DNA from: a virus
Virus record (IMG/VR): IMGVR_UViG_3300042691_014210
Coordinates: 1-27,071 of that record
Reading direction: 5' to 3' (one strand)
Length of the DNA stretch: 27,071 nt
Every line of letters begins with the position of its first letter. The stretch's first letter is position 1. Both the position numbers and the translations under genes were made by a program. Shown in pieces: positions 8,102 to 22,313 of this stretch. Below the pieces are notes generated by a model. It ran no database searches. It was not told the DNA's origin and saw only the letters and a list, made by a program, of their open reading frames with translations.

Positions 8102-9253
8102 TTAGGCGACGTTGGCTGACTTGAAGCTCTTGACGGCTGCTGGGATCGCGAGACCCGTCGCGCCGCGGACTTCGATCTTGTAGCTCACGAGCCCGAGGTT
8201 CCACGCGAACTCGCGGGATGCCTCCACGCGGACGCCCCCCACGAGGACAGTCGTGATGCTCCCGAGATCGCCGAAGAGGATCGAGCCTGCCGTGTCGTCG
8301 GTGAGGTCGATCAACGCTGCGGAATACACAGGAGCGCCGAGGAGGCGATCAGGTGCGTTCGCATCGCCTGGTCGGAAGATCGGCTGACCAGCCGTATCAA
8401 CGAGACCAGTCACAACGCCGAGCGTTGTGTCGTTCATCAACCAGCCTGCCTTAGGCGCCCGACGATAGGCTTGATTGACCGACGCTTTGAGCTTGGCTAG
8501 ATCGGTGAAGTTGGGGTTCACCGTGGTGCCTGAACCAGTCACACCCGCAGCAGCCTGAGCCGCTACAGCCGTACCAGCGAAGGCGCCGTGAGCGACAGCC
8601 ACTTCGGCTCCCGCCTTGTCAGCCACGAACATCGAGATGTCGAAGGCTGCGTCTTCCACGAGCTCTTCGGTGATCTGGAGGATCGTCGCGTACTTGATCG
8701 GGGTGAGGGACAGCGCGCTGAGCGTTCCGTCTGACTCGCCGATGGTTCCCGCTTCAGCAACTGAACCAGCCGTCCCGAGCGCCGTGACGCGTGGGAACTG
8801 GATGTTGTTGCCTGTGGATGCGCGCACAACGGTGACGATGTTCGCGTCCAGGAACGGATTGAACTGACCAGCGACCACGTTGACTCGATCCCCGATCGAG
8901 ACTGGGTTGCCGAGACCAGTGCTTCGTGATACGTCTCGATACTCGAAGGTCTTCACGCCACCGTTGCGACCAAGAGCGCGAAGCTCCGCGATCTCATCGT
9001 TGACTTCTGCCTTCGGGGCGAGAACCTGAGCGAACTCAGCACGAGCTGCATCAGCGGCACTGCGTGCCTCTGCTGCGGACTTCTCGCTGCGGATCGCCTC
9101 GGCGATGACAGCAGCCTCGGCTGTAAGAGCCTCGAACTGTGCCTGCTTGTCGCCTTCAAGGGCGACGCCTGCTTCTGCCGCGTCAGCGACGATGCTCGTC
9201 GCCTGGGTCAGAAGATTTGCACGCTTCTCGTGCAGCTTCTTGATGTCTGCCAT
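8102..9253 (-). CDS. Major capsid protein, HK97 fold (383 aa)
   Basis: ATG at 9253 lies seven bases after AAGGAG. Residues 1-100 are a charged, Ala-rich coiled-coil delta/scaffold domain that the neighbouring protease would remove (cleavage probably near residues 95-110). The mature part contains the family's typical stretches: FRVxxG-like FPRVTALGTAGSVAEAG, KYATILQITEELVEDAAFD, WLMNDTTLG and the C-terminal SILFGDLGSITTVLVGG. Length and neighbours (portal and protease upstream, connectors downstream) are standard. Confidence 0.92.
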   Translation of the reverse strand: MADIKKLHEKRANLLTQATSIVADAAEAGVALEGDKQAQFEALTAEAAVIAEAIRSEKSAAEARSAADAARAEFAQVLAPKAEVNDEIAELRALGRNGGVKTFEYRDVSRSTGLGNPVSIGDRVNVVAGQFNPFLDANIVTVVRASTGNNIQFPRVTALGTAGSVAEAGTIGESDGTLSALSLTPIKYATILQITEELVEDAAFDISMFVADKAGAEVAVAHGAFAGTAVAAQAAAGVTGSGTTVNPNFTDLAKLKASVNQAYRRAPKAGWLMNDTTLGVVTGLVDTAGQPIFRPGDANAPDRLLGAPVYSAALIDLTDDTAGSILFGDLGSITTVLVGGVRVEASREFAWNLGLVSYKIEVRGATGLAIPAAVKSFKSANVA

Positions 9254-9354: not shown

Positions 9355-11199
9355 CTAGATCGTCTCGTCCCTCAGCATAGCGAGGCGCAGTTGCGCCTGT
9401 GCGACTGTGGGATGCGTTGATCGGTTCCCGAAGTAGGCGTCCAGGACTGCACGCGCTCGATCGAGGGCGTCCTGTGGAGCGTCTGTCAACGGGAGACGGG
9501 AGGCTGCTGCGCGAAGACCTTCAGCGATGGCGACTAGTTCGCCGTCGACGACGTCCGCGAACCCGAGCTTGTAGGAGCCTCGGAGTTCAGGTGCATCAGC
9601 ATCGTGGATGAGGAAGGCGCGACGAGCACGCTCGAAGTCTGGAGTCTCGCCATCGAATCCAGCCCACTCGAAGACACGAGCAGCCGCTGCGGCACCGTCC
9701 CAGTCACGCTCGACAATGTCGAGGTCGCGATCTGCACTGACGGTCCAGGTCTCACGCTGTTCGAGCTTCGCGCCGAGCTTGACGCGCACTGCGTCAAGGA
9801 CCTCGGTCTGCTCTTCAGTCAGGGATCGTCCCTGCTTGATCGCCTCGACCGTATCGACGAGGGTGTCGCCGCTGACGCCGAGTCGGTCCTTCGCGACCTT
9901 ACGGATCGCAGTGAGACCGAGGGTCGCTGGGTATGCAGGAGTCTGACCAGCAGATAGGACGCTCACCTCGAAGAGGTTGACTTCGCGCAGCGTGCGCTGA
10001 TCACCTTCCCACTCGTCCCCGTTCTTCGGGATCGTGAACCCGAAGGACCAGCCCATCGACTGCGCCTCGTTGCGAACCTTCGACAGGACGCTAGCTGCGT
10101 CTGGATCTGATGGGTCCAGGAGGGCGTCTACGCGTAGACCGCGCTCATCCTCGACCAGGGACAGGCGTCCACTTGCAGTCGTTGCAAGTGCACGAGTCTC
10201 GTCGTGACCGAATAGCAGGGAGACGATCTTCTTCCCCTCCGCAGCTCGTGCGAGGGTGCGCTTGAAGGCGCCAGGGGCGATGATCTCAGTGAACGGGAGA
10301 CCAGCAGATGGCGCTCCGAAGAGTGCCGCGTAGCCGCTGATCCGCTTCTGACCGTCTGCTGCGTCTTCGACTCGGTACTCACCGAGGGAGATGGATCGGG
10401 TCTCTAGTTCTTTCACGTCGAACCTCTCATCTACATCCGCGCTTGGTGCAAGTGCGCGATCTGCCCAAGATAGCACCTGGTCTGCTCCGTCTGGTTGTGT
10501 CGGATCGACTCCCCACAGGTATGCAGCGACTGCTCCTGGTCCTGGGAAGTCCTCGTTCTCTGGGTCGTTGTTGCGTGGCACGTTCTCCCAGTCGATTCGG
10601 TGTCGAAGAATCCAGGCACGCATCCGCGTGACCTTCTCGTCCTCGACTCGACCAGCAGCCAACTGACGAGCTTCTTCCACAGTCTGTGGCTGGAGCCCAT
10701 CGCCTGCGTATCCGTTCCGTTCGTACTCGATGCCCTTCCTGGCGTTCTCTCGGATGTAGTCGGGAACGTCGAGCAGAACGCGCACCTGATCATCAGGAGA
10801 CTCGTCATCGACCGTCAAGGCGATCGCCTCCTCTGGCGTGTATGCAGCGATCCCCATCCCCTGGGCTGCGTCTCGAGCCTCTGGGTCGTTGTCGACCAGG
10901 AACTCGATCTCGTCTCCGTACTCTTCCAGGAGCTTCGAGTATTTGTACGCCTTGAACGCCTCGTTGACGGCTGGGTTCGACTCACCGAAGTCCTGGAGGT
11001 GGATCTCTTCATACGGGACGAGGTTGTCGTTCAGCCATCGTTCCGTCTCAGCGAGTCGGTCGATGTTGCGTGCAGACACGATGATGACCTGGGCTCCGAA
11101 GTCGTTCGCCTGACTCTTCAGCCAGTCGATGAACGGCTGGTTCGGAGTGTCTCCGCTGGTCGTCAGCGTCCCGTCGATGTCAGTGATGATGTAGCTCAC
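9355..11199 (-). CDS. HAD phosphatase - prohead protease fusion (614 aa)
   Basis: GTG at 11199 overlaps the portal stop (GTGA). Four regions are visible. Residues 1-125 form a HAD-type phosphatase resembling the phosphatase half of phage polynucleotide kinases: nucleophile motif D7-I-D9-G-T, motif II VSAR (Ser42), a Lys at 86 or 89, and acidic motif LVDNDPEA (Asp103, Asp105). Residues 140-250 are a module with NGYAGDGLQPQTVEEAR and PGPGAVAAYLWG. Residues 265-425 are an HK97-type prohead protease (peptidase S78-like) with His332 in FGHDETRALA and Ser385 in MGWSFGF. Residues 495-590 (RDWDGAAAAARVFEWAGF, SYKLGFADVVDG) match a module often attached to phage head proteases. The protease should cut the capsid delta domain; what the phosphatase does in a prohead is unknown. 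Confidence 0.85.
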   Translation of the reverse strand: MSYIITDIDGTLTTSGDTPNQPFIDWLKSQANDFGAQVIIVSARNIDRLAETERWLNDNLVPYEEIHLQDFGESNPAVNEAFKAYKYSKLLEEYGDEIEFLVDNDPEARDAAQGMGIAAYTPEEAIALTVDDESPDDQVRVLLDVPDYIRENARKGIEYERNGYAGDGLQPQTVEEARQLAAGRVEDEKVTRMRAWILRHRIDWENVPRNNDPENEDFPGPGAVAAYLWGVDPTQPDGADQVLSWADRALAPSADVDERFDVKELETRSISLGEYRVEDAADGQKRISGYAALFGAPSAGLPFTEIIAPGAFKRTLARAAEGKKIVSLLFGHDETRALATTASGRLSLVEDERGLRVDALLDPSDPDAASVLSKVRNEAQSMGWSFGFTIPKNGDEWEGDQRTLREVNLFEVSVLSAGQTPAYPATLGLTAIRKVAKDRLGVSGDTLVDTVEAIKQGRSLTEEQTEVLDAVRVKLGAKLEQRETWTVSADRDLDIVERDWDGAAAAARVFEWAGFDGETPDFERARRAFLIHDADAPELRGSYKLGFADVVDGELVAIAEGLRAAASRLPLTDAPQDALDRARAVLDAYFGNRSTHPTVAQAQLRLAMLRDETI

Positions 11200-12398
11200 G
11201 ACGGTGTCGTCTCGCTTGTTGTCGAACCGTCGAGGGTGCCGATGTTGAGTGGTTTCCAGAACTCATCGCCACCATCTACAGGTGGTCGATCTTCCAGTGC
11301 GCGCACTTCGTTCACCGACAGGAACCCGTTGTTCAGTGCCGTCGAGTAGGCGTTGTATCGTTCCTGTGTTGTCGCTCGAAGCAGACCTTCCATCGTGAAC
11401 TTGATGAACGTGCGCTCTCCGATGATGAGTCGCTGGAGTCCAGCCTCGATGCGTGCGACCAGGCTCGTCAGTCCGAGGACCATCCACGCCTGACCGAGAA
11501 CCTCAGCCGATGCGTATGACGTGTTCCCGCCTGGGTACTGAAGAAGCTGAAGTGGAACGCCGTAGATGCGAGCGATCGCCTCGACGCCGTAGTGCATCGT
11601 CTCGACCAACTGGAGGTCGCTGATCTTGATGCCGAGCTGCTGATAGTCCGCTCCACCTGTGAGCACTGCGACGCGCCACGCCTTCTCGATGCCCTCGTGA
11701 CGTCGTGCGAATCCAGAGCGAAGAGCCTCTGCCTGATCTATCGTGAGTTCCCCTGGAACCTTGACGATGCCACCGACAGTGGTGCCGTTCTCGTAGAACT
11801 TCGCGCTGAACAGTTGCGTCGCGCTCGCCAGACCGAGCGTCACCTTGTGATGCTCGACTGGCGATAGCCCGCGCAGATTTTCGCCCGTTGCGAAGAGCTT
11901 GATGTGGATGATGGATTCGGTGCCCAGGGTTGTCGCGCCTTCGCGTGTCTCGATCTTGTAGATCGGTGCTCCGTCGTCGCCCATCTCGACGGTGACCTTC
12001 TGTGGGTTGAGGACTCGTGTCTCCACAACATCTCCAGATGGTGCGCGCAGTACCAGGATGAACGCGTTCCCGTCTAGGAGAAGTGACGAGACCATCCGAT
12101 GCTTGAAGTCGAACGGTGTCTCGTTAGGGTTCGACGGCTGTGGATGATCCATCCAGCGTGGACGTGGTCGGAACGGTCGACGCGTTCCGTCGATGCGGAT
12201 GTAGGTGTCCCAGGGCATTGACGCGATGGTGTCCGCGTACAGCTTGACGGCTGCATACACTGCGCCGATCGACGTCGCGTTCTCTTCGTTGATGTGCACT
12301 CCAGCCGTTGTCTTGTTCTCACCAGCGAACCACTGCCCACCGATTGTGCGCTTCTCTTCTGGAATAGAGCGTCCGAGGACGCGATCAAGGATTCCCAC
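11196..12398 (-). CDS. Portal protein, HK97 type (400 aa)
   Basis: The start is GTG at 12398 with GGAG five bases upstream; an ATG two bases earlier is out of frame. Family features are clear: an N-terminal MGILDRVLG helix, AVYAAVKLYADTIASMPWDTY, the strand LLDGNAFILVLR, ISDLQLVETMHYGVEAIARIYGVPLQLL, and the C-terminal NGFLSVNEVRALEDRPPVDGGDEFW. The protein forms the dodecameric ring at the capsid vertex through which DNA is pumped. It is 9 bases from terL and overlaps the protease, the classic HK97 order. Confidence 0.93.
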   Translation of the reverse strand: MGILDRVLGRSIPEEKRTIGGQWFAGENKTTAGVHINEENATSIGAVYAAVKLYADTIASMPWDTYIRIDGTRRPFRPRPRWMDHPQPSNPNETPFDFKHRMVSSLLLDGNAFILVLRAPSGDVVETRVLNPQKVTVEMGDDGAPIYKIETREGATTLGTESIIHIKLFATGENLRGLSPVEHHKVTLGLASATQLFSAKFYENGTTVGGIVKVPGELTIDQAEALRSGFARRHEGIEKAWRVAVLTGGADYQQLGIKISDLQLVETMHYGVEAIARIYGVPLQLLQYPGGNTSYASAEVLGQAWMVLGLTSLVARIEAGLQRLIIGERTFIKFTMEGLLRATTQERYNAYSTALNNGFLSVNEVRALEDRPPVDGGDEFWKPLNIGTLDGSTTSETTPS

Positions 12399-12407
12399 AT
12401 TGTCTCC

Positions 12408-13985
12408 TTACAGCTCGACCCACTCGACCTTCGGCTTCGGCTTCGCCTCCACCATTAGGGACTTCACTCCCTGGAACGATACCACCGCAGCCACCGCAGC
12501 GTCGATCTTATCTGGCGAGGACTTGTAGCTCTTGCCGATGACGGTGCCGTACCTGGTGGTCCTGGTGTGCACGTTCCCGATGTGTCGCGCCAGGAGGGGA
12601 TCGCCATCGTGCCTCAGTCCCTCACCTGTGGCGACTGCTGTGAAGAATCGGTCGCAGGCTGGTCCCATCCGTTCCAGTGTAGCTGTCGAGAAGATCGCGA
12701 CCTTGTTCCCGTATCGACGACCCCACTCTTCGATCTCTGTCTGCCACCCAGGAGGGTCACAGAAGAGCGTCGCGTCGTAGGTCTTCATCAACTGGTCGAC
12801 AGTCGCGTCTACCTCTGAGCGTGGGACGGTCCACTCTGGGTCCCTGGTGTTCCGCTCCCAGGTCTTGATGTGGAAGATGTAGCCGTCCAGGGTGCAGCCC
12901 ACCAGCGATGACGCGTCTCGGGCATAGGAACCGTCGAACCCGACCGCGATCTTCGCACCAGGTTCTGGCGCCAGGCTGACGTCCTTGAGCTTCATCCACT
13001 GCTCGAGACCGATCCAGCGATCTGGAGGCTGGACGAATCTGTTCAGGTGGTACCTCTCGAACTCGTGCCGTGGGATCTCGATGAACCGCGCCATCAGGCG
13101 CTCGATGTCGACGAAGGCTGGGGCGCTGGGGTTCGCCTGCTCGAGGGCTGCGCGCAGTCCTGCCTCGGTCTCGATGTCGTGGGTCTCTGATGCCTGCCAC
13201 CACTCAGCCAGGAACGATGGGTCCTTGACTTCTCCGAGGTTGATCTTCTTCGCGTAGGCGAGAAGTCGACCGAGCAGGCTGTTCTCGTCAGACCCTGCCG
13301 TCGAGATGTTCAGCTCGAGCGCCTCTGCACGCTTCGCCAGTGAGTTCGCCAGGACCAGGTGGACGCGCTCCTTGTTCCCAGTCCACTCGTGCAGCTCGTC
13401 AGCGATGAAGCACGTCGGGCGTCCTCCGTCGTTGGTGCCTGCCGCAGCAGCCACTCGATACATCCTCCCTGGTCCGTCCTTCCTCAGGATCTCTGTGTCG
13501 AACACCTCGAAGTGCGGAGCGAGTGGTCCCTGGGTCAGCATTATCCGAGCAGTTCCGAAGAGTAGGTCCGCCTGCTCGAAAGACGCAGCAGCGACTGGGA
13601 TGTTCGCTGCGATGGGTGCCCGAGGTCCTGCTAGTTCAGCCAGGGCGATGGCTGCGAGGAGCTCGGTCTTCCCGTTCCCCTTCGGTGTGCCCAGGAGCGC
13701 ACGTCGAACGATGCGTCGGTTCGTCGTTGGGTCGTATTCGTAAAGGCGCCAGATGAACGCCCTCTGCCAGGGTTCGAGTCGGAACGGTTCCCCGAACTTG
13801 TCGCCCTCACCGTGGACGAGGTTGGTCTCGATCCAGCGACAGACCAGTCCGCCCCAGCTAGGCGGAGGCGGAGTCGTGATCGGGCTCGAGTAGAGCGGGG
13901 TCTTCTGGGGTGACTTCGGCTGCGACCCTGCGCGGGTCGTCTTCTTCGGTCTCTTCGACACTGGCTGCGTAGGCGATTCGTGCAT
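12408..13985 (-). CDS. terL: Terminase large subunit (525 aa)
   Basis: The packaging ATPase and nuclease. Walker A is GTPKGNGKT (99-107) and Walker B is CFIADE with catalytic Asp196-Glu197. The nuclease half shows VGFDGSYARDASS (Asp351), LFCDPPGW (Asp410) and DKIDAAVA (Asp492/Asp495), the expected three-acid set. The start at 13985 has GGAGGAGCTCA directly upstream. It creates a 128-base out-of-frame overlap with terS and an unusual 42-residue Pro/Ser/Lys-rich leader before the family's usual start near SWGGLVCRWIE. Motor function is certain; whether the leader is translated rests on the ribosome site. Confidence 0.94.
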   Translation of the reverse strand: MHESPTQPVSKRPKKTTRAGSQPKSPQKTPLYSSPITTPPPPSWGGLVCRWIETNLVHGEGDKFGEPFRLEPWQRAFIWRLYEYDPTTNRRIVRRALLGTPKGNGKTELLAAIALAELAGPRAPIAANIPVAAASFEQADLLFGTARIMLTQGPLAPHFEVFDTEILRKDGPGRMYRVAAAAGTNDGGRPTCFIADELHEWTGNKERVHLVLANSLAKRAEALELNISTAGSDENSLLGRLLAYAKKINLGEVKDPSFLAEWWQASETHDIETEAGLRAALEQANPSAPAFVDIERLMARFIEIPRHEFERYHLNRFVQPPDRWIGLEQWMKLKDVSLAPEPGAKIAVGFDGSYARDASSLVGCTLDGYIFHIKTWERNTRDPEWTVPRSEVDATVDQLMKTYDATLFCDPPGWQTEIEEWGRRYGNKVAIFSTATLERMGPACDRFFTAVATGEGLRHDGDPLLARHIGNVHTRTTRYGTVIGKSYKSSPDKIDAAVAAVVSFQGVKSLMVEAKPKPKVEWVEL

Positions 13986-14512: not shown

Positions 14513-15715
14513 CTACCTCTTCGCACGACGAGCCGCTCGGTTCAACGGCTGGGCACTTGCAGGCTGACTGGCGAACTTCTGGATGAAGGGGACCCACAGG
14601 TCAGCGAAGATCTTGTCCGCGTCGTACTGCTGAGCCCAGGCGACGATGGCTGCTCGGTCCACCTTCCCTGCCTTCGTCTCCTGATAGTTCTGCTCCAGCG
14701 CCTGGGTGATGCCGTCGACTGATGGCACACGCCAGAAGGCGCACTGGTACTCATCCCAGTCGTCCTGCCCATCGACGATCTTCCCGTGTGGTCCACAGAG
14801 TTCTGGCTGTGCTGATCCGTCTCCCACGATCACTGGAGTGCCGCACGCCTGGGACTCGACCGTAGGCACTCCGAACCCTTCCCCGTAGCTCGCAGCCAGG
14901 AGGACATCCGCGGCAGAGTAGATCGCAGCGAGTGTCTCGTTCGGGATGCCGTTGCGGAAGGCGTTGGGTTCTGGGTAGCGGACACGCTGCTGGTCAGCGC
15001 CGATCAGCTTCAGGAACCTGGGGAGGTTCATCCCCTCGCTCAGTCCTAGTGGCTCGGTGTGGAGGAGGAGGTACATCTCAGGGTGATCCTTCGCCACGTT
15101 CCACCACGCCTGGAGATTCTGTGCGAACGCCTTCCTGATAGGTAGCCTGCCTCGGTTCGCCGCCACCATCAGGCTGAGGTGGGCGTCTTCAGGGATGCCG
15201 AGGTCCTTACGGATGCCGCGCCCCTTGTCGTTGAAGACCATCGTCTCGATGGCGTGCGGGATGTAGGTGACTCGATCGCGTGAGAGTCCAGCCTTCAGCA
15301 TCTCCCGCTCACCGTGTCTGCTCATCGCGATGGCGTGTCGGTCGTGCTGCTTCAGGAACTCGATGGATGCTGGTGTTGCAGGCGTATGGTCGATCGGAGC
15401 CCAGACCGCAGTCTTCAATCCGCCGAACTCATTAGACCAGGGCAGGATCGCCCAGGCGTCGAAGAGGATGATCCCGATCCCATCAGGTCCAGCCCACTGC
15501 TTCATCTGCTGCGGAGCCGCGTCGCCTGAATACTTGAGCAGTCCCTCTGGGAAGATCGGATGACCACTGGCGCAGTTCATCGCCACTGCTGCTCCGTGAT
15601 TCGAGATGACCGCAGGCTCGTGTCCTGACTTCACCAGTCGGTGCACAACCTGAGCACACTGCTGACCGTAGCCACTTGGGACGTGACAGGAGTTGCTGTA
15701 GAACGAGACGCGCAT
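14513..15715 (-). CDS. Glycosyltransferase, GT4 family / GT-B fold (400 aa)
   Basis: ATG at 15715 follows AGGAGGACATCAAG. The N-terminal Rossmann half starts MRVSFYSNSCHVPSGYG, with a Gly-rich donor/acceptor loop and an APIDH strand. The C-terminal half carries the EX7E signature, Glu279-GFGVPTV-Glu287, followed by SQACGTPVIVGDGSAQPEL, typical of retaining GT4 enzymes that use NDP- or GDP-sugars. The C-terminus is basic (NRAARRAKR). The target could be a virion protein, host surface glycan or modified DNA. Its place between the HNH nuclease and terS, co-oriented with packaging genes, suggests late expression and favours virion decoration, but this is inference. Confidence 0.85.
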   Translation of the reverse strand: MRVSFYSNSCHVPSGYGQQCAQVVHRLVKSGHEPAVISNHGAAVAMNCASGHPIFPEGLLKYSGDAAPQQMKQWAGPDGIGIILFDAWAILPWSNEFGGLKTAVWAPIDHTPATPASIEFLKQHDRHAIAMSRHGEREMLKAGLSRDRVTYIPHAIETMVFNDKGRGIRKDLGIPEDAHLSLMVAANRGRLPIRKAFAQNLQAWWNVAKDHPEMYLLLHTEPLGLSEGMNLPRFLKLIGADQQRVRYPEPNAFRNGIPNETLAAIYSAADVLLAASYGEGFGVPTVESQACGTPVIVGDGSAQPELCGPHGKIVDGQDDWDEYQCAFWRVPSVDGITQALEQNYQETKAGKVDRAAIVAWAQQYDADKIFADLWVPFIQKFASQPASAQPLNRAARRAKR

Positions 15716-18666: not shown

Positions 18667-18863
18667 CCCCGCACCTGGTTCACCAGGATCGAGAGTCGGT
18701 CATAGGCTGACTCGACTGCATCCTCTGGCGACGTGCCCTTGAAGTTCAACTCGCCACCCATCGTGTCAACGATGACCAGGACATACCCTTCGGTCGTTCG
18801 TAGCAGTGCGTCGAAGTGGTAGCCCAACTGGTCAGCGAGAACCTGTAGCTCCTGGAACCTCAT
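18663..18863 (-). CDS. Hypothetical protein (66 aa)
   Basis: ATG at 18863 overlaps the kinase stop (ATGA). The sequence runs QVLADQLGYHFDALL, then EGYVLVIVDTMGGELNFKG, then a helix with SAYDRLSIL. It looks like a compact alpha-beta protein. I do not recognise it; coupling to the kinase gene is its only clue. Confidence 0.6.
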   Translation of the reverse strand: MRFQELQVLADQLGYHFDALLRTTEGYVLVIVDTMGGELNFKGTSPEDAVESAYDRLSILVNQVRG

Positions 18864-19423
18864 CGTGTCTCCTCCATCGTCTCGGTGATGATCCGATACG
18901 TCTCCTCTGGCGTCTGCTCAGAGGTGTCCACACTAATGTCGAACGACGCGTCTGTCCAGCCCAGCTCGGTGATGTCCCTGGTCCCCAGGAGCTGACCACC
19001 GACACGCTGACGTCGGACCTCCTGGTTCGCGAACAGCCTGACCACGAAGATCGAAGGATCGACGGATCGGAGATAGATGATCTCCGAAGGTAGGCGAACG
19101 TCATCGACGACCACCGACAGTCCGTGGCTCTTGATCTCGTCATAGGCGTGCTCCCAGATTCTCATCCACCAGTTCCTGTCGATCTCCCGCATCTTCGCTC
19201 CGACCTCCTGGAAGATCTCCCTCCCAGTCAGCCATCGAGCTCCGCTGTAGGTCAGCACCTCGTGTCCTTCGTTCTTCTTGAGCCCTGGATACGCCATCCA
19301 GGTCACGCTCTTCACCGCGTCAGCGATCCCGTGTCTGGCATAGCCTCGATGTTCCGCGAACATCTCAGCGATGGTGCTCTTCCCTGAGCCCTGTGGTCCG
19401 ATGAGTGCGATGCTCCTGCTCAT
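18860..19423 (-). CDS. P-loop deoxynucleoside monophosphate kinase-like (187 aa)
   Basis: Walker A is GPQGSGKST (9-17). VVVDDVRLPSEI about residue 105 is the second nucleotide motif, and FVVRLFANQEVRRQR gives a lid-like basic segment. The pattern matches phage deoxynucleotide monophosphate kinases that raise dNTP supply. ATG at 19423 overlaps the preceding stop (ATGA). The substrate base is not readable from sequence. Confidence 0.75.
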   Translation of the reverse strand: MSRSIALIGPQGSGKSTIAEMFAEHRGYARHGIADAVKSVTWMAYPGLKKNEGHEVLTYSGARWLTGREIFQEVGAKMREIDRNWWMRIWEHAYDEIKSHGLSVVVDDVRLPSEIIYLRSVDPSIFVVRLFANQEVRRQRVGGQLLGTRDITELGWTDASFDISVDTSEQTPEETYRIITETMEETR

Positions 19424-20452: not shown

Positions 20453-21190
20453 TTAGAACGGAAGGTCCTCCAGGTTGTCCTCAGGCACCAGCTTCGGCTT
20501 CGGAGCCTCGACTGGGTTCGCAGCCTGGAACGCCCTGCTCGGCTTGTCCTTGCACCACGATCCGTCCGCTGTCTTGTGAGATGCAGCCCAGAACGGCTGG
20601 TACTCACGCCCTGTGGTCTTACTGACGCCGCCTGGCTTCAGCTTGAACTCCTCACCGTGACTGCACGTCCCCCCTGCTGTCGTCTCAGCGAAGATCATCG
20701 CAGCCTTCACAGCGAGAGCCTCGTCCTCTGAGATCGTCCCAGACCCCACCGTAGAATCGACGGAGATGGGTCCAGGAGCCACGGAGAGACGCGGAACACG
20801 CCCAAGTGGTACTGGGACACTCCCCACGCCCTTCTCGGGGCTGTAGAGGCTACGCCCGACACCGACCTGTGCTGCACAGCGACGGAGGGCGTCCGAAGCT
20901 GCGCTCTTCAGGGGCTCGTCATCCTGGGCGGAGTTGGGGTATCCGAAGTCCTGGTGGATCGTGGTCTTCCCATCGACAACGATCGCCAGTGAACCGTGGA
21001 CCACTCCACGAACTGGATCTGCCACCTTCACCTCGAACTGCCAACCAGCGAGACCGAGGACGTCATCGAGACGCTGGGCGACCGCCCTGGCGTCTGCATA
21101 GGTGAACGTCATCCCAGCTCGACCAGGTCGATGCTTGAGGTCCTTCTCCTCGAAGGGTGCCGATAGTGCTGCTGCGATCTTCTCGCTCAT
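20453..21190 (-). CDS. Rad52-type single-strand annealing protein (245 aa)
   Basis: ATG at 21190 overlaps the exonuclease stop (ATGA). Residues 20-116 carry the Rad52/Rad22 pattern: KHRPGRAGMTFTYADARAVAQRL, HQDFGYPNSAQDDEPLKSA and SDALRRCAAQVGVGRSLY. Residues 174-215 form a possible zinc site (CSH ... H ... C: Cys176, His178, His205, Cys213) around KTTGREYQPFWA. The end is acidic and reads EDNLEDLPF, like the tip of bacterial SSB proteins. It would anneal strands made by the YqaJ-type exonuclease encoded just upstream. Confidence 0.85.
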   Translation of the reverse strand: MSEKIAAALSAPFEEKDLKHRPGRAGMTFTYADARAVAQRLDDVLGLAGWQFEVKVADPVRGVVHGSLAIVVDGKTTIHQDFGYPNSAQDDEPLKSAASDALRRCAAQVGVGRSLYSPEKGVGSVPVPLGRVPRLSVAPGPISVDSTVGSGTISEDEALAVKAAMIFAETTAGGTCSHGEEFKLKPGGVSKTTGREYQPFWAASHKTADGSWCKDKPSRAFQAANPVEAPKPKLVPEDNLEDLPF

Positions 21191-22128
21191 AGGTCTGTCT
21201 CCTCCTTGAACTTGAACACACGCGCCCCAGGAACTTCCCGAGTGTTCGCGTCGATAATCTCCTGGGGCACCTTCGCTGCTTCAGCGACTGCCTTCCAGTC
21301 TGTCTTCGCTGAGCCCTTGTTCGTCCTCCAGGTTGCGCGCCAACCTTGTCCGATGATTCCCTGCTTCTCACCGATCGCCTCCTTCAGGCTGATCGCCAGG
21401 TTCTGAAGTTCCTGGTCCAGCAGCTTCGATTCGTAGAGCTTCTCCGAATACAGGGACGCGACTCGGTCGAGTCCAGGATTCGAGTCAGCCCAGTCTTCAG
21501 ACTCCTGCTTGAACACCCACGCTAGGGCGTCGCTGTCTTCGCCCTGCACTGGTGGTGGAGTCTGTGTAGCGAGTGCATCGCGGAACTCCACAGCCTTCCG
21601 ATACAGCTCGGTCTGATACGCCAGGACCGCCTCGACGCGCTCGATGCGGAAGACCAGACCACCCAGGAGCACTGCGACGTCGACCCAGGGCGCACCTGTG
21701 ACGAACATCTGCCACTGAACCTGAGCGACGACCTCTGGTGGAACTGGGTGCAGACTCCATCGAGGTGAAGTTGAGGTCTTGATCTCGACGAGACCATCCT
21801 CACCGACGATGGTCCGATCCAGGGATGCCATCGCCCAGGGGATGTCCTTGATGCGGACGATGCCGTTCGACCGCTTCAACTTCCGACCTGTCTCCATCTC
21901 ATAGAACTCCGCGACTGTCGCCTCCAGGAGAAGACCGCGGATCGCTGCTGCGCCCACAGGCTCTGGCTCATACTTCCCGAGCTTCTCCGCCCAGAGCTGG
22001 AACGGTGTCTTGTATGGATTGACACCAGCGATGACCGACACGTCGGTCGCAGTGATGCCATCCTTCCGCAGGGCGTGCCACTCTGGCGACCTCTGCTCTG
22101 CCTTGATGAACTCGAACTGCTTGGTCAC
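21187..22128 (-). CDS. YqaJ-type (lambda-exonuclease-like) recombinase nuclease (313 aa)
   Basis: I start at GTG 22128, which follows GGAGGACGAAA and overlaps the FmdB-like stop; the frame is open further upstream. The family pattern is plain: RSPEWHALRKDGITATD, NPYKTPFQLWAEKLG, Glu69, Asp104 (ASLDRTI), Glu115-Ile-Lys117 (LVEIKTS), and the QVQWQMFVTG helix with catalytic-site Gln. It degrades one DNA strand so that the Rad52-type partner can anneal. The two genes overlap, as in phage Red-type pairs. Confidence 0.9.
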   Translation of the reverse strand: MTKQFEFIKAEQRSPEWHALRKDGITATDVSVIAGVNPYKTPFQLWAEKLGKYEPEPVGAAAIRGLLLEATVAEFYEMETGRKLKRSNGIVRIKDIPWAMASLDRTIVGEDGLVEIKTSTSPRWSLHPVPPEVVAQVQWQMFVTGAPWVDVAVLLGGLVFRIERVEAVLAYQTELYRKAVEFRDALATQTPPPVQGEDSDALAWVFKQESEDWADSNPGLDRVASLYSEKLYESKLLDQELQNLAISLKEAIGEKQGIIGQGWRATWRTNKGSAKTDWKAVAEAAKVPQEIIDANTREVPGARVFKFKEETDL

Positions 22129-22313
22129 TTTCGTCCTCCTCTGTCTTTCTTCGCCCAGCCTTCGCCCTTGTAGACGACGGCTGGTGCGCTTATCACGCGG
22201 AGCATCCAGCATCCGCACTTCTCACATCGTGGCGTCAGTGGCGCATCCATCGTCTGGATTCGCTCATCGACCACCTTGCACACTGGGCACTGGTACTGGT
22301 ACACAGGGCTCAT
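22125..22313 (-). CDS. FmdB-family zinc ribbon protein (62 aa)
   Basis: ATG at 22313 overlaps the previous stop (ATGA). The start SPVYQYQCPVCKVVDE, a second pair CEKC (30-33) and the tail SAPAVVYKGEGW match the FmdB zinc-ribbon family, known from bacterial and phage genomes with poorly defined regulatory roles. The C-terminus is basic (KKDRGGRK). Confidence 0.82.
   Translation of the reverse strand: MSPVYQYQCPVCKVVDERIQTMDAPLTPRCEKCGCWMLRVISAPAVVYKGEGWAKKDRGGRK

Follow-up and report, generated by a model that had tools for sequence, protein, structure and literature searches.

Head maturation proteases are usually viewed as cutting the scaffold, then themselves, and nothing more, and those of the HK97 type are thought to be active in proheads only. 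Two in-frame proteins made from one gene by an internal start are known from gene 4 of T7 (4A/4B) and from C/Nu3 of lambda, the lambda case lying at the head protease gene. Polyvalent phage proteins are multidomain proteins in which head proteins of the virion (MuF, portal) carry shuffled enzyme modules, and passages in Iyer et al. 2017 (PMC5512222) present these proteins as thought to be packaged and injected. Here, we describe a gene in which a putative phosphatase of the HAD type is fused to an HK97-type prohead protease, in a single virus record of 27,071 bases that was analyzed at its full length (the window). Comparison with related sequences strongly supports the domains of the encoded protein, the conservation of the fusion and of its catalytic residues, and the conservation of an internal start. 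We lean towards an explanation in which this one gene gives two in-frame proteins, and in which a long, probably minor form would take the phosphatase and a helical module, KGL, into the prohead, the protease then freeing them.

The full open frame (HAD-KGL-S78-WDG, 614 aa) lies at 9355..11199 on the minus strand. The initial annotation had proposed one 614-residue protein at these positions, free of internal stops, without giving a strand; frame analysis agrees and places the protein on the minus strand, the plus strand of 9355-11199 having stops in frame. The GTG start at 11199 overlaps the portal stop codon as GTGA. The gene sits between those for the portal protein (11196..12398, minus; PF04860, 7.9e-78) and the HK97-type major capsid protein (8102..9253, minus; PF05065, 5e-32), as is the case for S78 prohead proteases, and the terminase large subunit (12408..13985, minus; PF03354, 5.3e-14; phrog_9, 1.3e-86) lies beyond the portal gene. 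Just upstream of the terminase is a glycosyltransferase gene (14513-15715, minus); phage phiPsal1 likewise has glycosyltransferases near its head genes. Elsewhere, the window encodes a deoxynucleoside monophosphate kinase-like protein (18860-19423, minus; phrog_139, 3.6e-25) and, at 20453-22218 (minus), a Rad52/22-family annealing protein adjoining a YqaJ-type exonuclease, likely a two-gene recombination pair.

The protease domain occupies residues 278-426 (9922..10368, minus). It matches peptidase S78 (PF04586) with an E value of 2.8e-28 and 99.6 bits (cut-off 21), and the NCBIfam HK97 proheadase model TIGR01543 at 3e-23 and 82.5 bits, over the curated cut-off of 59. The catalytic residues H332, S385 and E411 show no variation among 31 aligned family members, and the intact HK97-type protease with His332 and Ser385 seen in the initial annotation is thereby borne out. 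So are the two further modules that it had placed between and after the enzymatic domains. The first, the helical KGL module, covers residues 140-250 (10450..10782, minus). No Pfam family was found for it; the head protease profile phrog_80 spans residues 137-426 and phrog_2859 covers 146-233. KGL accompanies many head proteases, a module HMM matches in both clades, that of the window and the phiPsal1-like one, and KGL may be a head-targeting adaptor. Besides phrog_80 and phrog_2859 proteins, Nodularia phage "minor head proteins" also carry KGL. The second, the C-terminal WDG module, at residues 485-592 (9424..9747, minus), resembles a module found in Streptomyces phage proteins annotated as "capsid maturation protease and MuF-like fusion". 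Among the relatives in our set, it was found in the window and one identical contig only, and we therefore reject WDG as part of the ancestral fusion. The full-length AlphaFold model (mean pLDDT 62; S78 and C-terminal parts of low confidence) was left out of the reading of S78.

Relatives were gathered from viral contigs, 12 in a first scan and 80 in a profile scan. HAD, KGL and S78 lie in one frame at 79 loci including the window (60 distinct coding sequences); relatives without the complete fusion are cut by contig ends, and no split version occurs in the 79-locus family. The fusion that the initial annotation had suggested looking for in related genomes is thus widespread among them, and the shared frame at 79 loci rules out the sequencing error or assembly join of two genes that it had considered. 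Median pairwise dN/dS is 0.16 for HAD, 0.16 for KGL, 0.11 for S78 and 0.30 for the stretch after S78. HAD moves as a unit: the proteins of loci L015 and L058 are near-alike in S78 (95% shared) and diverged in HAD (49%). One scan of cultured-genome contigs, made to find hosts with related prophages, returned distantly related proteases only, with no HAD fusion. The database entry A0A6J5R419 ("prohead protease", uncultured Caudovirales, 501 aa) is 65% identical in a full-length structural alignment and 64% identical in HAD, and in predicted-structure libraries HAD-like parts are also seen in further entries named "Prohead protease" or XkdF.

The uniformity of the fusion bears on a different reading, which we consider rather unlikely, namely that the product is a cytoplasmic polyprotein from which HAD and KGL are cut off early to act in the infected cell, in nucleotide or end metabolism, so that the fusion only co-regulates them with the late genes and nothing is packaged. 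Standalone Pnkp-like HADs, whose supposed site of action is the cell, are indeed common in phages, and the internal start described below would give a protease independent of the fusion. However, that same start makes splitting the gene cheap, and yet 0 of the 79 loci has a split gene; moreover, one would not readily expect a cytoplasmic repair enzyme to be encoded in a late head operon, and early cleavage in the cell would go against the general view that HK97-type proteases work in proheads only.

The domain that the two-protein explanation would place inside the prohead, HAD, comprises residues 1-128 (10816..11199, minus) and is predicted to be a capless phosphatase-like domain resembling the 3'-phosphatase of Pnkp. 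At the sequence level, residues 1-128 match Pfam HAD families weakly (0.0025, 0.02), but PHROG 415, annotated as "polynucleotide kinase", gives 8.5e-10. A search of PDB structures with an AlphaFold model (residues 1-135, pLDDT 91.9) finds Pnkp1, T4 Pnkp and lipin/Nir2 domains. Upon realignment, the highest scores belong to T4 Pnkp chains (Z 16.6-16.0, 117-119 residues, rmsd 1.9-2.1), the best being the T4 Pnkp 3'-phosphatase 1rrc (Z 16.6, 118 residues, rmsd 1.9), followed by Pnkp1 (Z 15.9), Nir2 (15.1) and lipin (13.6). Thioredoxin and CRASP, which came up when the HAD profile was compared with PDB sequences, were dismissed as chance matches. In a one-against-one profile alignment with T4 PseT (E 6e-5), D165/D167/S211/R213/K258/D277 of the T4 protein, which we take to have catalytic roles, align with D7/D9/S42/R44/K83/D103 of HAD. 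Motifs I-III of the Pnkp 3'-phosphatase (DxD, S-x-R, Lys) are present and invariant. Motif IV is DND rather than DD, T4 D277 corresponding to D103 and D278 to N104, followed by an invariant D105; the replacement of T4 Asp278 by Asn is a caveat to Pnkp-type activity. D7, D9, S42, R44, K83, D103, N104 and D105 are invariant in the 31 aligned family members, in line with the active-site set (Asp7/Asp9, Ser42, a Lys, Asp103/Asp105) and the resemblance to the 3'-phosphatase half of polynucleotide kinase given in the initial annotation, the Lys being K83. Because the score against Pfam HAD_PNKP (PF25109) is 15.3 bits, under the curated cut-off of 27.6, we call HAD Pnkp-like and do not file it as a Pnkp member. 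Altogether, by fold and motifs HAD is Pnkp-phosphatase-like, and we regard it as a putative phosphatase.

A second, diverged HAD lineage (PF25109 score 25.7, likewise below the 27.6 cut-off) is also fused to S78. A scan for it yielded 34 loci: in 30 it shares a frame with S78, two are truncated at a contig end and two are unfused. One unfused relative, L201, has the kinase-plus-phosphatase make-up of Pnkp, its kinase half being read by eye, rather than by profile, from a P-loop-like GYPGSGKST stretch. At another locus, L202 (2432-2959), a standalone HAD follows a Cys-rich zinc-ribbon-like stretch, and the HAD profile matches in two pieces. Relatives of gp006 of Pontimonas phage phiPsal1 have a combinatorial N-terminus before KGL-S78, the options being a module named "GW-GCH", one named Cys4 that weakly matches HiPIP, a TUDOR-like module (PF11160), DUF5824 (PF19141) or the second HAD. 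The Cys4 module (CGNC...C...C) is fused to the head protease in L014 (3665-5119) and L074 (2741-4456), with the weak HiPIP match seen in L104, and it may be an iron-sulphur or zinc module that is packaged. DUF5824 and TUDOR-like modules occupy the slot of HAD on the prohead protease in L104 (256-2112) and L163 (479-2407). As judged from these sequences, the HAD-S78 fusion is recurrent: it occurs in about 110 contigs and involves at least two HAD lineages. HAD is one of several interchangeable N-terminal modules, and the fusion is thus a pattern and not a one-off.

The lineages also inform a reading that we regard as improbable, in which HAD has a structural or targeting role or a substrate of another kind (nucleotides, lipid head groups or protein), its likeness to Pnkp being one of fold only. 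Lipin/Nir2 HAD-type domains are close behind in the structural comparison (Z 13.4-15.1), and the sub-threshold HAD_PNKP score and the Asn at the position of T4 Asp278 fit this reading. However, a module with a purely structural role would have no need of the nucleophile and acid-base residues, and these do not vary; moreover, the sequence families matched are polynucleotide kinases, and L201 has the make-up of a true kinase-phosphatase.

Several lines of evidence, all of them comparative, strongly support the idea that the two-protein explanation requires, namely that translation also starts inside the gene. First, codon 262, immediately before S78, is a candidate start codon (GTG at 10414..10416, minus, in the window) that reads GTG, TTG or ATG in 57/57 nonredundant sequences aligned there, and it has changed among GTG, ATG and TTG more than once, always remaining a start codon. 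Nowhere else in the gene does NTG reach ≥95%, except at the start itself and at one nearly invariant Met, and only 38% of Val codons overall are GTG. Second, a Shine-Dalgarno-like GAGAGG (10423..10428, minus) precedes it, and the Arg259 codon within it is AGG in 47/47 Arg-bearing relatives; as the counts at codons 262 and 259 come from related sequences, they are not independent events. Among Arg codons as a whole, AGG accounts for 6%, and its share at the other conserved Arg positions never exceeds 20%; where residue 259 is not Arg, a purine-rich AGGGAG lies slightly upstream. Third, synonymous variation is 0.01 at codon 259 and zero at 262 (mean 0.45), and the lowest 7-codon window of the gene starts at 256. 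Fourth, the Shine-Dalgarno energy in the window is -6.5 at the internal site vs -4.6 at the upstream start; the family median at the internal site is -8.2, with a weaker site (-3.4 kcal/mol) in one subclade. When the site is ranked by Shine-Dalgarno strength against other stretches of equal length from its own gene, its median percentile is 3.5% in the clade of the window and 10.7% in the phiPsal1-like clade. In the latter, TTG, GTG or ATG again stands just before S78 in unrelated linker sequences, the evidence being weaker in this clade, where Leu/Val codon bias by itself accounts for some of the NTG pattern. A candidate start at residue 139, before KGL and Met in several relatives, was rejected: the residue is Ala, Ile or other in many, and synonymous variation is ordinary and the Shine-Dalgarno sequence weak in the window.

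Because the internal ribosome-binding site and start codon are conserved, we predict a short product of 353 aa (9355..10416, minus) comprising the protease and C-terminal module, and the bare protease is probably translated from the internal start besides the long form. The initial annotation had seen no strong restart, a view that GTG262 and GAGAGG, conserved family-wide, overturn; it had also held that an internal start before residue 260 would speak against the fusion, and the conserved start, at 262, lies just beyond that limit. Within a gene, a Shine-Dalgarno-like sequence can also have another effect, the pausing of ribosomes between domains. We consider it improbable that only the long form is made and that GAGAGG and the NTG at 262 mark a ribosome pause site or the relic of a separate protease gene: there is a general proposal that Shine-Dalgarno-like sequences cause pauses at domain borders, and the standalone proteases of distant relatives (L084-L088) begin at about the matching place, but a pause site needs no start codon, and a relic would decay, yet codon 262 has kept to three start codons and codon 259 to AGG.

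In the two-protein explanation that we favor, we infer the relative amounts of the forms, packaging, self-release, the substrate and injection as follows. Ribosomes that reach the end of the portal gene would, by coupling, start at 11199 and make the long form HAD-KGL-S78-WDG, and ribosomes entering at GAGAGG and GTG (10414-10428) would make S78 protease without HAD and KGL. The short form would be the ordinary supply of prohead protease. The long form would be a tagged and probably minor species that enters the prohead through its protease part, together with the short form, HAD and KGL thereby being carried inside. The initial annotation had already pictured the enzyme inside the prohead, a plausible proposal. 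The flexible linkers at residues 129-139 and 251-275 would be the places where the protease frees HAD and KGL, and no cleavage site could be identified in the long form. The phosphatase would have as its substrates DNA or RNA ends that bear a 3'-phosphate, either in the head or, once ejected, in the newly infected cell. By analogy, self-release and co-injection would be in keeping with what passages in PMC5512222 relate of packaged polyvalent proteins, and with the precedent of HK97-type proteases. More tentatively, carrying cargo may be a general role of head proteases in a large group of uncultured phages. Through a conserved internal start, these proteases would be made both bare and with one of several interchangeable enzyme or binding modules (Pnkp-like HAD, HiPIP-like Cys4, TUDOR, DUF5824), which would be dragged into the prohead, cleaved off and left for injection into the next host. 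The conserved dual-start gene and the swappable N-terminal enzymes suggest that head proteases can also deliver capsid cargo. If true, phage heads would have a simple and naturally tunable loading route for proteins, and one more head component would join those used for virion-packaged effectors.

Within the openly licensed literature, we found no paper on HAD fused to a prohead protease, nothing that describes an internal start in the gene of such a protease, and nothing apt on fusions of head maturation proteases or on phiPsal1. With HK97-family prohead proteases (PF04586/TIGR01543), the window protein shares S78 with His332, Ser385 and Glu411 and the location between portal and capsid genes; it adds the N-terminal HAD and KGL and a conserved internal start for the bare protease. 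With the 3'-phosphatase domain of T4 Pnkp (PseT) and bacterial Pnkp1, it shares the capless fold and the DxDGT, SxR, Lys and Asp motifs; it differs in having no kinase half, in having DND for DD in motif IV and in being joined to a head protease. The gp006 protein of phiPsal1 (AUV61415.1) also has KGL and S78 (38.5% identity over residues 135-475), but it is without HAD and has GW-GCH and Cys4 modules instead. In T7 4A/4B and lambda C/Nu3, the short form is a helicase or scaffold, whereas in the window gene it is predicted to be the protease. As in polyvalent proteins, disparate activities (HAD and S78) lie in one polypeptide with a virion component, and variants carry TUDOR, DUF5824 or HiPIP-like modules; in contrast to them, the head component is the S78 protease, predicted to be made separately too from the internal start. 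The HAD-prohead protease fusion does not appear in those passages of PMC5512222 that a text search for prohead, HAD and phosphatase brings up. Sequences with the fusion are already deposited as "prohead protease", the HAD-like N-terminus of A0A6J5R419 and similar entries being unremarked in the database; what we add is a description of the fusion and of its conserved dual start, which by analogy would make this gene a head-protease version of the packaged fusion proteins.
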